Source: Methylocystis rosea SV97
Lineage (GTDB): Bacteria; Pseudomonadota; Alphaproteobacteria; Rhizobiales; Beijerinckiaceae
Direction of reading: 5' to 3'
Assembly: GCF_000372845.1 (NCBI RefSeq)
Contig: NZ_KB889963.1
Location: forward strand, 744,001 to 808,000
DNA length: 64,000 bases
Below, one piece after another: positions 35,846-47,168 of this stretch. The translations under genes and the position numbers were made by a program. The notes under the pieces were generated by a model. That model searched no databases and was not told where the DNA came from. It was given only the letters and a program-made list of their open reading frames with translations. Numbering within the stretch: the first letter of the stretch is position 1; the number at the start of each line of letters is the position of its first letter.

Positions 35846-37069
35846 TCACGGCGTCGCGTCGGCAGTATGGCCGGCGGCGCTGGCCTTCGCCAGCTCGACG
35901 AGATCGGGCGGCAGCAATCGGGCCTCCTCTTCGGTGATGGACGCCACCCTCCCCGCGAGGTTCGACCCGAGGCGCGCCATCGCCTCTTTCAGGTTTGGAG
36001 GATCGTAACGACTACTGGCGCCATAGATGTTGCAGCTGCGGCCGAGCTTCGCCAGCACGCTCCAATGGACCTTCTCATTGACCTGTTCCTCGGCGGGATC
36101 GCCGCTGGAGCTGAAAAAACTGTTGGCGGGCGCCCCGGCCGGAAACATCTCGCGGCTGCGCGGAAAATTCCTGTCGATCGGATATTTCTCGGCGGAATCG
36201 GGGATGTTTCCGTCGATGTTCGGCGTCAACGTGCGCTTGATCGCCGCTTCGTCGAATGAGAGACCGGTGAGCGCCTGCGTGCGCGCAATCATCCAGATCA
36301 AAGCGATGTCCGAAAGCCCCGATTCCGGATAGCCGCCACCGACGTTGCAGTGGACGCCCGGAAACCAGTTCTGCTGGATGTTCGAGGGACGCGGCGCCCC
36401 CTTCTTCACCGTCCAGAAAGTCGGCGTAAACGGACGCCGGCGCTCGTCGACGCCGATCGCGTGCAGCGCGTGGTCGACATGCGGACCGAGCTGCGTGTCC
36501 TCAAAACCGCCGAACACCGCCAGCGTGACGTAGCGGCCGAGCGGCGCAAGCCCGCTGAAACCGGCAGGCACGCCATAGGAGCCGACGGTGTCGAAAACGC
36601 CGAGCAGCTTGATGCGATTGTTCGCCTGAACGTCGGGACCGCTCGGCGGCGCGCCGAGCCGCGACGCCTTCTTCGCGCTCTTATTGGCGCGCGCGATGTC
36701 GAAGATGCTTTTGTCTGTCGTCTTTCGGATGCCGCAGTCGCCAATCAGGCCGGCCAAGGCGCGGGCGGCATAGGCGCCGCGCGAAAATCCATAGATATAC
36801 AGCTCCTGATCGTCCCGATAATTGTCGACGACCCAATTGTAGGCGTCCTGCGCGATGGTCCGCAGGCCGAGGCCGGCGGCGCCGCCGACGATCTTGAATC
36901 CTTCGGCGCCGACGCCGGAAAAGTAGCGGACGTTCTGCTCGACGTCGTCTGCGCCTTTCGGCGGGATGAGCTTTTCGGAGACTTTCTCGTCCCAGGACTT
37001 CTTGCAGATGCTGGTGAAATCGCGCGGCGTATTCCATGTGCCGTCGAGCAGGACAATGTTGCGAATCAT
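35846..37069 (-). CDS. DUF2235 (Tle1-like) alpha/beta hydrolase
   Basis: The 407-residue protein starts MIRNIVLLDGTWNTP and carries the nucleophile elbow YIYGFSRGAYAARALAG (Ser96). NNRIKLLGVFDTVGSYG and PGVHCNVGGGYPESGLSDIALIWM follow, completing the DUF2235 pattern shared with type VI secretion Tle1 phospholipases. ATG 37069 has GGAGG upstream. No secretion genes or immunity gene adjoin it, so it is more likely a cytoplasmic or housekeeping hydrolase; substrate unknown. The ORF continues upstream but only as shadow sequence. Confidence 0.85.
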   Translation of the reverse strand: MIRNIVLLDGTWNTPRDFTSICKKSWDEKVSEKLIPPKGADDVEQNVRYFSGVGAEGFKIVGGAAGLGLRTIAQDAYNWVVDNYRDDQELYIYGFSRGAYAARALAGLIGDCGIRKTTDKSIFDIARANKSAKKASRLGAPPSGPDVQANNRIKLLGVFDTVGSYGVPAGFSGLAPLGRYVTLAVFGGFEDTQLGPHVDHALHAIGVDERRRPFTPTFWTVKKGAPRPSNIQQNWFPGVHCNVGGGYPESGLSDIALIWMIARTQALTGLSFDEAAIKRTLTPNIDGNIPDSAEKYPIDRNFPRSREMFPAGAPANSFFSSSGDPAEEQVNEKVHWSVLAKLGRSCNIYGASSRYDPPNLKEAMARLGSNLAGRVASITEEEARLLPPDLVELAKASAAGHTADATP

Positions 37070-37230
37070 TTTTTCCTCCAACAGCTTAAGCAACTGCGGA
37101 CAAGGGGCGTCAGGGCGCTTTGCGATGCTGACGCGGTTTGGCGGCCCGGGCAAGCAAGTGGAAAATACTTGGCCAGGAAGGGCGCTCGCCATTATGAAAG
37201 GAAAACCTCAGCCAAGCATTGGAGAAACGG

Positions 37231-44075: not shown

Positions 44076-45194
44076 ATGAAGGTCACCATCGAGAGAGCGG
44101 CGCTGTTGCGGGCGCTCGGCCATGTTCACCGCGTGGTGGAGCGACGCACGACCATTCCGATCCTGGCGAATGTGCTGCTGTCCGCCAAGGACGGCGCGCT
44201 GACGCTCAAGGCCACTGATCTCGATCTTGAGATTACCGAGAAGACCGCGGCGGAGGTCTCCCAACCCGGGGCGACGACGCTGCCGGCGCATACGCTCTAC
44301 GACATCGTGCGCAAACTGCCGGAGGGCGCGCAGGTCTCTCTGGAAGCCACCGGAGACGCCGGACAGCTGACGCTGCGTTCGGGACGTTCGCGATTCAACC
44401 TCTCGAGTCTTCCCGAGAGCGACTTTCCCGACGTCACCTCCGGCGACTTCAGCCATAAGTTCGCGCTCGCGCCGGCGGATCTCAAGCGGCTGATAGAAAA
44501 AACGCAATTCGCCATCTCTTCCGAAGAGACGCGCTATTACCTCAACGGCATCTATCTCCATACGCTTGATGTTGAGGGCCGGCCGATGCTCCGGGCCGTC
44601 GCGACCGACGGCCATCGTCTGGCGCGGCTGGAGCTTCCCGCGCCTGAAGGCAGCGCGGGCATGCCGGGCGTCATCCTGCCGCGCAAGGCCGTCACCGAAG
44701 TAATGCGTCTCATCGAGGATGCGCAGGGAGACGTTTCAGTCGAGCTTTCGATCAACAAGATGCGCTTCACCTTCGGCGACGCGCTGCTGACGACCAAACT
44801 GATCGACGGCACGTTCCCCGATTACGGGCGCGTCATTCCCGCCGGCAACGACAAGCGGCTCACTGTCGAGCGCGACGTCTTCGCCAAGGCGGTCGATCGC
44901 GTCTCGACGATTTCCTCCGAGCGCGGCCGCGCCGTCAAACTCTCGCTCTCCGACAGCAAGCTCGTGCTGTCCGTCACCAATCCAGACCAGGGCTCGGCGG
45001 TCGAGGAGCTCGAAGCCGACTATGACGGGCCGCCGCTCGATATCGGCTTCAACGCCCGCTACCTCCTGGACATCACCCAGCAGCTCGACAGCGACACGGC
45101 GCTCTTCAAACTCGCCGACCCCGGCTCGCCGACGCTGGTGCAGGACCGTGACGGGGCCACGGCGCTCTACGTCTTGATGCCGATGCGCGTTTAA
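44076..45194 (+). CDS. dnaN: DNA polymerase III subunit beta (sliding clamp)
   Basis: The 372-residue clamp starts MKVTIERAALLRALGHVHRVVERRTTIPILANVLL and has all three clamp domains, ending ALYVLMPMRV. It encircles DNA and holds polymerase III. The last 78 bases, including the stop, recur at 46201-46278 with four differences, so the present 3' end may have been delivered by an integrated element. No dnaA or recF is in the window. Confidence 0.97.
   Translation: MKVTIERAALLRALGHVHRVVERRTTIPILANVLLSAKDGALTLKATDLDLEITEKTAAEVSQPGATTLPAHTLYDIVRKLPEGAQVSLEATGDAGQLTLRSGRSRFNLSSLPESDFPDVTSGDFSHKFALAPADLKRLIEKTQFAISSEETRYYLNGIYLHTLDVEGRPMLRAVATDGHRLARLELPAPEGSAGMPGVILPRKAVTEVMRLIEDAQGDVSVELSINKMRFTFGDALLTTKLIDGTFPDYGRVIPAGNDKRLTVERDVFAKAVDRVSTISSERGRAVKLSLSDSKLVLSVTNPDQGSAVEELEADYDGPPLDIGFNARYLLDITQQLDSDTALFKLADPGSPTLVQDRDGATALYVLMPMRV
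45117..45194 (+). repeat. direct repeat, copy 1: 3' end of dnaN
   Basis: The final 25 codons and TAA stop of dnaN. It matches 46201-46278 at 74 of 78 positions: differences at repeat positions 16, 24, 45 and 78. Only one changes a residue (Thr to Ala); the others are two silent third-base changes and TAA/TAG. It is the left boundary of the putative insertion. Immediately after it lies a palindrome AAAGCTTTAAGCTTT. Confidence 0.9.
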
Positions 45195-46200
45195 AGCTTT
45201 AAGCTTTCTCGAAGTAGCGGCTCCCAGGCTTTAATAATCTGTGCTAAATCTATGCGAAGTGCCGGATATTACATTTTTGAAAAACAAATAAAGCCAGAGA
45301 CATGGAGTCCGGCCGGTATATTATTTTTCGATGGAAGTTCCGCAACGATCGTTAGTTCTTGGAAAAATTTTTCTTCCGGGACCGAAGCTCAGGTTATTGC
45401 TGCTGCAATGCGCTATTTCAGCTCTATGGATATCTTGGACGATCAGATTAGGCTCACGTGGTCTTCCTTCACACCAGGTCAATATTACCACAAGGTGGCC
45501 CGGCCTGTGGTCAGTTCGCATTGGCAAAACACGAATCACATGCTGCCTTTGCGTCATGACGCACAGCCTGAGGTGCTAACTCATCAAACACACTTAAGAA
45601 CCCTAATTGGATTGTTGGATAGAATACTGTTGGTCGTTTACCCTTCACGAGACACTCTCTCTACCTACGGCTACGAAATTAGAAACCTATTAATTCTTGC
45701 TTGCACCGAGTGCGAAACGCAGTGGCGTGCCGTCCTGCAGGCCAACGGTTATGTAAAGGAACATTACTCGACCAACGACTATGTGCGGCTTGAACGGGTT
45801 CTACGACTTCGGGAGTATGAAGTCGCCTTGACCCGCTACCCTTCATTCGAACCGATACGTCCTTTCGGTTCTTGGCATGCGGCGGGAAATCCGACCCAGG
45901 ATCTGGGTTGGTATAACGCCTACAACGCCACCAAGCACAACCGAAATGAGAATATACCCAAGGCGAGCTTGGGCAATGCTATGACGGCGCTGTGCGCATG
46001 TTGGGCAGTGTTAGTAGCTCAATACGGCGGCCCCGTTCTGGGTGACGCTCAGGATATTCGCGAATATTTTGACTTAAAGGCAAAACCGAAATGGGACTTG
46101 TCAGAATCCTATATTTTCCACGTGTGTGACGAACATTTTAGGACCTGGAACGCTGTAAGCTGTCCTTTTTAGCTCGCCTCGCAAAGCGCGAGCGTGAGCT
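45195..46200. mobile_element. putative small integrated segment at the dnaN 3' end
   Basis: About 1 kb lying between the two dnaN-end repeats. It contains one AT-richer gene and short AT-rich flanks, including the palindrome just after copy 1 and an imperfect AGCTC/GAGCT hairpin just before copy 2. No integrase, transposase or terminal inverted repeat is visible, so it is either a remnant of a larger site-specific element, a non-autonomous element, or a recombination scar from a related strain's dnaN region. Confidence 0.5.
45252..46172 (+). CDS. orphan protein, possible HEPN-like accessory/defence gene
   Basis: A 306-residue protein of no recognised family, read from ATG 45252 with no strong ribosome site but an AT-rich TAATAAT stretch upstream. 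The codons are much more A/T-ending than those of every neighbour. The N-terminal third is mixed alpha/beta-like (SPAGILFFDGSS, MRYFSSMDILDDQIRL). The C-terminal half is helical with GWYNAYNATKHNRNENIPKA, then ALCACWAVLVAQYG. A W..YN..KH.R stretch followed by a helix recalls HEPN-type RNase/abortive-infection proteins; this is inference only. No partner gene is beside it. Confidence 0.7.
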   Translation: MRSAGYYIFEKQIKPETWSPAGILFFDGSSATIVSSWKNFSSGTEAQVIAAAMRYFSSMDILDDQIRLTWSSFTPGQYYHKVARPVVSSHWQNTNHMLPLRHDAQPEVLTHQTHLRTLIGLLDRILLVVYPSRDTLSTYGYEIRNLLILACTECETQWRAVLQANGYVKEHYSTNDYVRLERVLRLREYEVALTRYPSFEPIRPFGSWHAAGNPTQDLGWYNAYNATKHNRNENIPKASLGNAMTALCACWAVLVAQYGGPVLGDAQDIREYFDLKAKPKWDLSESYIFHVCDEHFRTWNAVSCPF

Positions 46201-46278
46201 GACCCCGGCTCGCCGGCGCTGGTCCAGGACCGTGACGGGGCCACTGCGCTCTACGTCTTGATGCCGATGCGCGTTTAG
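46201..46278 (+). repeat. direct repeat, copy 2: detached dnaN 3' end
   Basis: A 78-base copy of the dnaN 3' end that would read DPGSPALVQDRDGATALY and end with a TAG stop. It has no upstream coding sequence and so is a fragment. It is probably the original or the displaced dnaN terminus. It is followed 38 bases later by the OmpA-like gene, suggesting that gene once directly followed dnaN. Confidence 0.9.
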
Positions 46279-46316
46279 GTCTTGGAGAGACGCGTTCGTC
46301 CCGTTAGGGTCGGCGC

Positions 46317-47168
46317 GTGCTTGTTGAATTCCCTCGCCTCTGGCCGTGGCTTCTCGCCTGTTTCGCCATCGGCGCCGCCGCCGGGGCATTGACCGGGCGC
46401 GCGCCTGAAAATGGCCTCGTCGCCCGCTGGCTGGTGTGGACCGCGCTCGCTTTCGGCGTCGGCCTCCTTCTCGTCCGGCTCGGCGCGCTCGACGCCGCCG
46501 CGCCCTTGGTCGAGGGCGCGCTCGCGGCCTATGCCGTCTTGATTGTTGGCGCCGCGCTCTGCGCCTTGGCGCGGCATCGGTCGATCTGGGCGCATGAGGG
46601 CTGGGCCGTAGGGCTGGTCGCCGCCTCGCTCCTCTGGGTCGGAGCGGTCGTGATCGGCCAGTCCGACGGCGAAGAGGGTCGCCGCTTTGCCGCGTCGACA
46701 AAAAGCGCGGGCGCCGACATGCCGCCCGCGACGTCGCCGCCTGCCGACGAAACACCCACCGCCGGCGCGACCATATCGCCCGTCCACGCGCAAGGGCCGA
46801 GCGCGCCAGCCGCGGCCGTATCCGGCGTCATGACGCTCGTCGACTGCCAGACGGCGCTTGAAGCCTCTTCGACGCCCGGCGCACTGGTCTTTCGCAAAGG
46901 CAGCGCGCAACTCACGCCGTCAGCAACGCGCGCGCTCGACAAGGCGGCGGCGATCATTCGCCGGTGCCCGGAAAGCGCGACGATCGCGGTCAGGGGCCAT
47001 GTTCGCGGTTCGGGCGCGAAAGCGCCCAATGACGCGCTGGCGCAGAGGCGGGCGGAGGCGGCGAGGGGCTATATCGAGGGTCAGGGCGTCGGCGGGCGCC
47101 GCCTCGTCGCATCCCCCGGCGAAGCGGATCAGGCGGAAAACCGCGCCCTCACCTTTGAGGTTCGATGA
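46317..47168 (+). CDS. membrane protein with C-terminal OmpA-like domain
   Basis: The 283-residue protein has an N-terminal membrane region with about four hydrophobic helices (e.g. WLLACFAIGAAAGALTG, AYAVLIVGAALCALA). A Pro/Ala linker follows, then a C-terminal OmpA/MotB-like peptidoglycan-binding fold (LVFRKGSAQLTPSATRALDKAAAIIRRCP, LAQRRAEAARGYI, ENRALTFEVR). The start is GTG 46317. The domain is slightly degenerate around the second strand. It may tether the inner membrane to the cell wall. Context gives no more. Confidence 0.78.
   Translation: MLVEFPRLWPWLLACFAIGAAAGALTGRAPENGLVARWLVWTALAFGVGLLLVRLGALDAAAPLVEGALAAYAVLIVGAALCALARHRSIWAHEGWAVGLVAASLLWVGAVVIGQSDGEEGRRFAASTKSAGADMPPATSPPADETPTAGATISPVHAQGPSAPAAAVSGVMTLVDCQTALEASSTPGALVFRKGSAQLTPSATRALDKAAAIIRRCPESATIAVRGHVRGSGAKAPNDALAQRRAEAARGYIEGQGVGGRRLVASPGEADQAENRALTFEVR

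Follow-up and report, generated by a model that had tools for sequence, protein, structure and literature searches.

Behind the beta clamp gene dnaN of Methylocystis rosea SV97 lies about 1 kb of foreign-looking DNA followed by a second copy of the gene's own 3' end, and the question that this locus raises is by what route the intervening gene arrived and which of the two copies of the dnaN end is the native one. The locus forms part of a stretch of 64,000 nucleotides which was analysed as a whole and is called the window here, with positions counted from its first base. The insertion at the locus is genuine: it consists of one gene, comes with a duplicate of the dnaN 3' end and was seen in one genome; dnaN is intact, and a foreign cargo gene belonging to a phage and plasmid family has been inserted behind it. 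The features involved are collected in Table 1.

Table 1. Features of the dnaN locus, in positions of the window
Feature	Position	Strand	Source or remark
dnaN, intact beta clamp gene, its end being repeat copy 1	44076..45194	+	ORF list, domain scan
Repeat copy 1, working dnaN 3' end, stop TAA	45117..45193	+	repeat alignment
Inserted segment, present in 1/39 genus genomes	45195..46200	.	genus-genome DNA search
Cargo gene, 306 aa, matches phrog_19461 (function of family not assigned)	45252..46172	+	
Predicted GC-rich hairpin, cargo stop codon to first two bases of copy 2	46169..46202	+	
Repeat copy 2, displaced dnaN 3' end, then stop base G (TAG)	46201..46277	+	repeat alignment
38-nt spacer, copy 2 stop to OmpA-family start	46279..46316	.	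length as in G028, G013, G018, G005, G017
OmpA-family gene, the native gene after dnaN in relatives	46317..47168	+	domain scan, relatives' loci

The dnaN product is 372 aa long and carries three DNA_pol3_beta domains in the domain scan. The raw alignment of the two tails extends over 80 nt at 95% identity (45114-45193 and 46198-46277), and because the first three bases of the second 80-nt copy belong to a hairpin, the repeat proper is 77 nt long, with 74 of its 77 bases identical and the copies 1084 nt apart. The difference at 45132 (A in copy 1, G in copy 2) exchanges Thr for Ala, and the other two, at 45140 (G/C) and 45161 (G/T), are silent; adding the last base of the stop codon, which is TAA in copy 1 and TAG in copy 2, gives 78 nt with four differences, and this alignment reproduces the original prediction of a 78-base tail repeat with four differences, one of which changes a residue. 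When 150 random 77-mers of the window were compared with the window on both strands as a control, the best other match covered at most 46 of 77 bases (mean 40.6), and chance is ruled out as the source of the 74/77 match. The search of the whole genome for the dnaN tail returned the two copies and one weak 29-nt match (G000 C1:697533), which has no dnaN around it; a wider ordinary repeat, an outcome that the original prediction had named as telling against it, was rejected.

The DNA between the copies agrees with the earlier description of about 1 kb of AT-richer sequence holding one gene and no integrase. Its G+C content (45195-46169) is 48.0%, compared to 64.2% for dnaN, and the GC3 of the cargo gene is 50.7%, compared to 82.0% for dnaN. 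The cargo gene is the single notable open reading frame in the insert and has no Pfam match, so no integrase is encoded there, and no integrase domain was found in the ten large open reading frames scanned between 25.5 and 59.4 kb of the window; the scanned neighbours of the insert are host genes. Elsewhere in the window, a gene at 35846-37192 encodes a catalytic domain like that of the T6SS phospholipase Tle1. The stretch folded for the predicted hairpin (46160-46215) has a z of -3.2, and the whole hairpin core occurs once in the window. The 15-nt core was rejected as a repeat family: allowing at most two mismatches, the genome contains 55 matches to it and 95 to the control, the reversed pattern. 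Scans for promoters and terminators remained at chance level.

The native arrangement can be read from the relatives. Of 61 genomes searched with the dnaN protein, 59 gave a match, 34 of the 36 other genus genomes being among them, and in 22 of 29 same-genus loci an OmpA-family gene begins (by projection) 24-143 nt past the dnaN stop; these are the empty sites for which the original prediction had suggested looking. In the remaining seven loci (G009, G025, G020, G008, G022, G010 and G031) no OmpA-family gene was found within 1.5 kb of dnaN. Counted from the stop of copy 2, the OmpA start in the window is the 39th base; the same count from the dnaN stop holds in the five relatives named in Table 1, and in G001, G026 and G032 the OmpA start is the 38th base. 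Since the spacing from copy 2 matches that of the relatives, copy 2 stands in the native place, and the end represented by copy 1 has been added together with the cargo gene; the window locus equals an empty site plus 1084 nt. The tail DNA was matched in 33 of 39 genus genomes, with two full copies solely in the window's own (G021 has a 33-nt match), and the DNA of the insert was found in one of the 39, again the window's own. A pattern scan of named genomes gave one hit each in Methylocystis sp. L43 and in a Methylocystaceae MAG, which agrees with membership of the Methylocystis group. The segment is therefore not one that every close relative carries, which was the other outcome named beforehand as contrary to an insertion.

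Comparison of the two copies with the same relatives bears on where the added end came from. Measured against G016, the closest relative at the tail, copy 1 has 1 difference in 77 positions and copy 2 has 2. At the three sites where the copies differ, copy 2 has two bases that are found in other strains and one that is found in none of the compared relatives; at least two shared bases would arise by chance with a probability, under a crude uniform model, of about 0.007 when the nine closest genomes are considered and 0.035 when 15 are, and this pattern favours two separate dnaN alleles, one of which would have been brought in. A T at 45149 and at its counterpart is common to both copies, and among nine close genomes G016 is the only one to have it, which points to one local lineage and would also fit copying in place. 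The 300 nt before the tail show 5 differences to G016 and 10-12 to the eight other close genomes, so that a recombination tract from a G016-like donor around the 3' half of dnaN is possible. Inspection by eye also brought to light short stretches duplicated in tandem, with the dnaN stop codon among them, of 21 nt in G004, G015, G016, G021 and G023 (L006, L010, L011, L012 and L025) and of 17 nt in G035 (L014), and in these sequences the stop junction looks as if it rearranges repeatedly.

The cargo protein matches the profile of phrog_19461 at residues 112-263 with an E-value of 8.1e-32. Relatives of this family sit in phages and plasmids, whereas the cargo gene here stands alone on a chromosome. 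Relatives with 33-40% identity were found in 3 of 38 other genus genomes, and further relatives on 11 plasmid records, in Salmonella phage SEN8 near an annotated cos site, and in 12 of 5426 E. coli genomes within one shared phage-like segment; within the order the family is rare, occurring at an E-value of 1e-10 in 6 of 397 genomes, the window's included. A search with a first alignment (A1) yielded 41 viral-contig loci with cargo relatives, of which 31 were taken into a second alignment (A2), three were excluded (L160, which has no open frame over the match, L163, which has no ATG, and L168, which is over-long) and seven others were not entered. Among the 12 of the 41 loci for which gene context was viewed, one relative lies 130 nt behind a Phage_integrase gene (L132) and another has an integrase 1.35 kb before it (L167).

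The sites that the family occupies in the Methylocystis group, in four genomes, are the dnaN end, a clean chromosomal insertion, a place behind a tRNA-Arg gene and a variable locus. The clean insertion, in G013, is a single-gene segment of 875 nt beside an HTH gene (L087:8566-9440), whose flanks are 1-7 nt apart in G004, G018, G016, G000, G015, G005, G021, G028, G017 and G029; no direct repeat of at least 20 nt borders it, and the empty site has lost about 6 nt. In G001 a weak cargo relative starts 22 nt after the tRNA-Arg gene (L088:9363-10041), and the contig ends after it in sequence that is repeated at many contig ends; tRNA genes are a common integrase target. The relative in G005 lies at a strain-variable locus near the glycyl-tRNA synthetase alpha gene. 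Four further loci in the order (L170-L173) show neither direct repeats of at least 22 nt nor a tRNA, and a fifth, with a weak member of the family (L174), is preceded by a tRNA-Thr at a distance of some 400 nt. The places at which the family settles thus differ, long repeats accompanying some but not others, and from G013 and the four order loci without long repeats it follows that it can enter by other routes than one that leaves such repeats.

Displaced dnaN tails were also sought elsewhere. The tail was matched in 289 of 297 genomes of an order sample, and more than one match, in a tally resting on per-genome counts, was obtained in 17 besides the window's own; no second convincing stranded tail was found among the 289. 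Most of the extra matches in these 17 genomes fall within open frames about 370-620 aa long, which by frame length are full genes, and weak ones occur in G115 (C6, a 43-aa frame with a stop, E 0.009), G058 (C12) and G282 (C4). The second match in G087 was rejected, being one gene split across two contig ends. The tail pattern also picked out three viral contigs, in which no stranded tail was found: L081:6119-7465 and L083:4585-5895 encode a full-length DNA polymerase III beta clamp, and in L082 dnaN is cut by the contig end. An ABC-exporter-like cluster lies in L082 between the cut dnaN and tail-like genes, with gene names assigned by eye. Among plasmids the pattern occurs in 17 records, in 6 of them within an annotated dnaN, the other 11 being replicons of 1.75-4.6 Mb, and among phages it occurs in 2 records. 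No convincing case of the elements ending in the same tail that the original prediction had suggested seeking was seen in the three viral contigs or in the order sample, and dnaN was not found as an integration site in the titles and abstract openings of the literature searched.

The reading that we favour, with a confidence that is about even, is an integrase-type insertion at the dnaN 3' end, through which a small mobile segment arrived carrying a single accessory gene of phage type. The segment would have supplied its own copy of the last 77 nt, so that dnaN stayed whole, and the old end would have been displaced to its present position next to the OmpA gene. We infer that a tyrosine-type integrase made the join at a core inside the dnaN end; it would have acted in trans or have been lost later, and what is left would be a stranded or non-autonomous element. 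An integrase-type event is suggested because the repeat has its start within the gene and its end at the stop codon, leaving a clamp of 372 aa, and an end brought from elsewhere because two of the three copy differences equal bases of other strains; the OmpA gene behind dnaN in 22 of 29 loci, the 41 viral loci, the integrase of L132 and the tRNA-Arg of G001 also count in its favour. Of the integration into dnaN originally predicted, the insertion at the 3' end stands, on the grounds of the empty sites, the occurrence in one of 39 genomes, the whole dnaN, the foreign composition and the phage and plasmid family, whereas against the site-specific element stands the lack of an integrase in the insert and in the ten scanned frames, of a convincing second case in the order sample and of a stranded tail in the three viral contigs, to which the clean insertion in G013 and the shared T at 45149 add further weight. 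Site-specific integration at dnaN is plausible. Genomic islands made by integrases in the 3' ends of genes, the kind dealt with by Islander (PMC4383910), show the same regenerated target, displaced fragment and empty sites, but they target a tRNA or tmRNA gene, while here the target is dnaN, the insert is about 1 kb and no integrase accompanies it.

Because the cargo relative in G013 was inserted cleanly and without long repeats, a repair-type (illegitimate) insertion is a live and serious rival, albeit a clearly less likely one, in which a cargo fragment would have been captured at a break at the dnaN end, repair would have duplicated 77 nt and copy 2 would have drifted since. The tandem duplications of 21 and 17 nt at the dnaN stop of relatives and the rare T common to both copies are consistent with such a course, while a duplication that stops at the stop codon, and a drift that twice in three changes arrived at bases of other strains, are not what it would lead one to expect. 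It is improbable that homologous recombination, the alternative named in the original prediction, delivered the arrangement ready-made from a relative together with a stretch of that relative's dnaN 3' half; the proximity to G016 in the 300 nt before the tail would fit this, yet the proposal merely shifts the origin to the donor, and G016 itself has an empty site. We regard as quite improbable the idea of a minimal mobile unit of one gene, with the cargo gene as its core, that is moved by a recombinase and has the dnaN 3' end as one of its sites.

The geometry of the locus, with direct repeats flanking the insert, is identical to that which would result from single-crossover uptake of a circle carrying the cargo gene and a dnaN tail, by homologous recombination within the 77 nt; this is most unlikely, as it requires a circle with a captured dnaN tail, and none was seen among the 6 of 17 plasmid matches checked. 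An assembly artefact, which the occurrence of the arrangement in one genome only might suggest, has next to negligible probability, given the three differences between the copies and the position of the locus within a contig of 3.5 Mb, in a genome assembled into two contigs.

If the favoured integrase-type insertion is indeed site-specific, a replication gene that is essential and universally conserved adds its 3' end to the known integration targets, and the element supplies the last codons of the clamp; the novelty would be the dnaN 3' end as target, the kind of event being already known. If the insertion was of the repair type, what happened was an ordinary acquisition of a gene, accompanied by a long duplication of the target. 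The locus also draws attention to a gene family of phages and plasmids, so far without a name, whose members settle singly in chromosomes, which is common for anti-phage cargo.

As to what the cargo protein does, no convincing match to it was found in Pfam, NCBIfam or PADLOC, the PADLOC-DB anti-phage profiles matched 0 families for 8 members of the cargo family, and single-sequence scans of the genome and of the viral contigs with the cargo protein gave no matches. The PDB, searched by sequence, returned one match at an E-value of 0.2, and BFVD one below 0.001, to an uncharacterised phage fragment of 153 aa. The predicted model (pLDDT 88.5) is rich in beta structure in its N-terminal part and helical in its C-terminal part, which carries a conserved WYxxYNxxKHxR stretch, and the conserved columns of 32 sequences include W220, Y221, Y224, N225, K228 and H229. 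HEPN ribonucleases have the motif R-x4-6-H, a pair that is absent from the conserved columns of the 32 cargo family sequences. The HEPN toxin of HEPN/MNT pairs (PDB 7ae8, 7ae6) recurs among the best structure matches to the cargo model, with a TM-score by target of at most 0.56, but these matches are weak (E-values of 0.4 and worse) and the motif is not conserved in the family. Beside relatives elsewhere lie an AbiE pair in a Rhizobium record, an AbiEii-type gene and a multiubiquitin/ThiF cluster in a Methylovirgula record, and RloB in a Bacteroides record. From these neighbours and the weak HEPN-like fold match one might guess at an accessory, perhaps anti-phage, protein. At one locus (L147:4313-4651) a resolvase N-terminal piece stands in one frame with a DUF4113 domain directly before the cargo relative.
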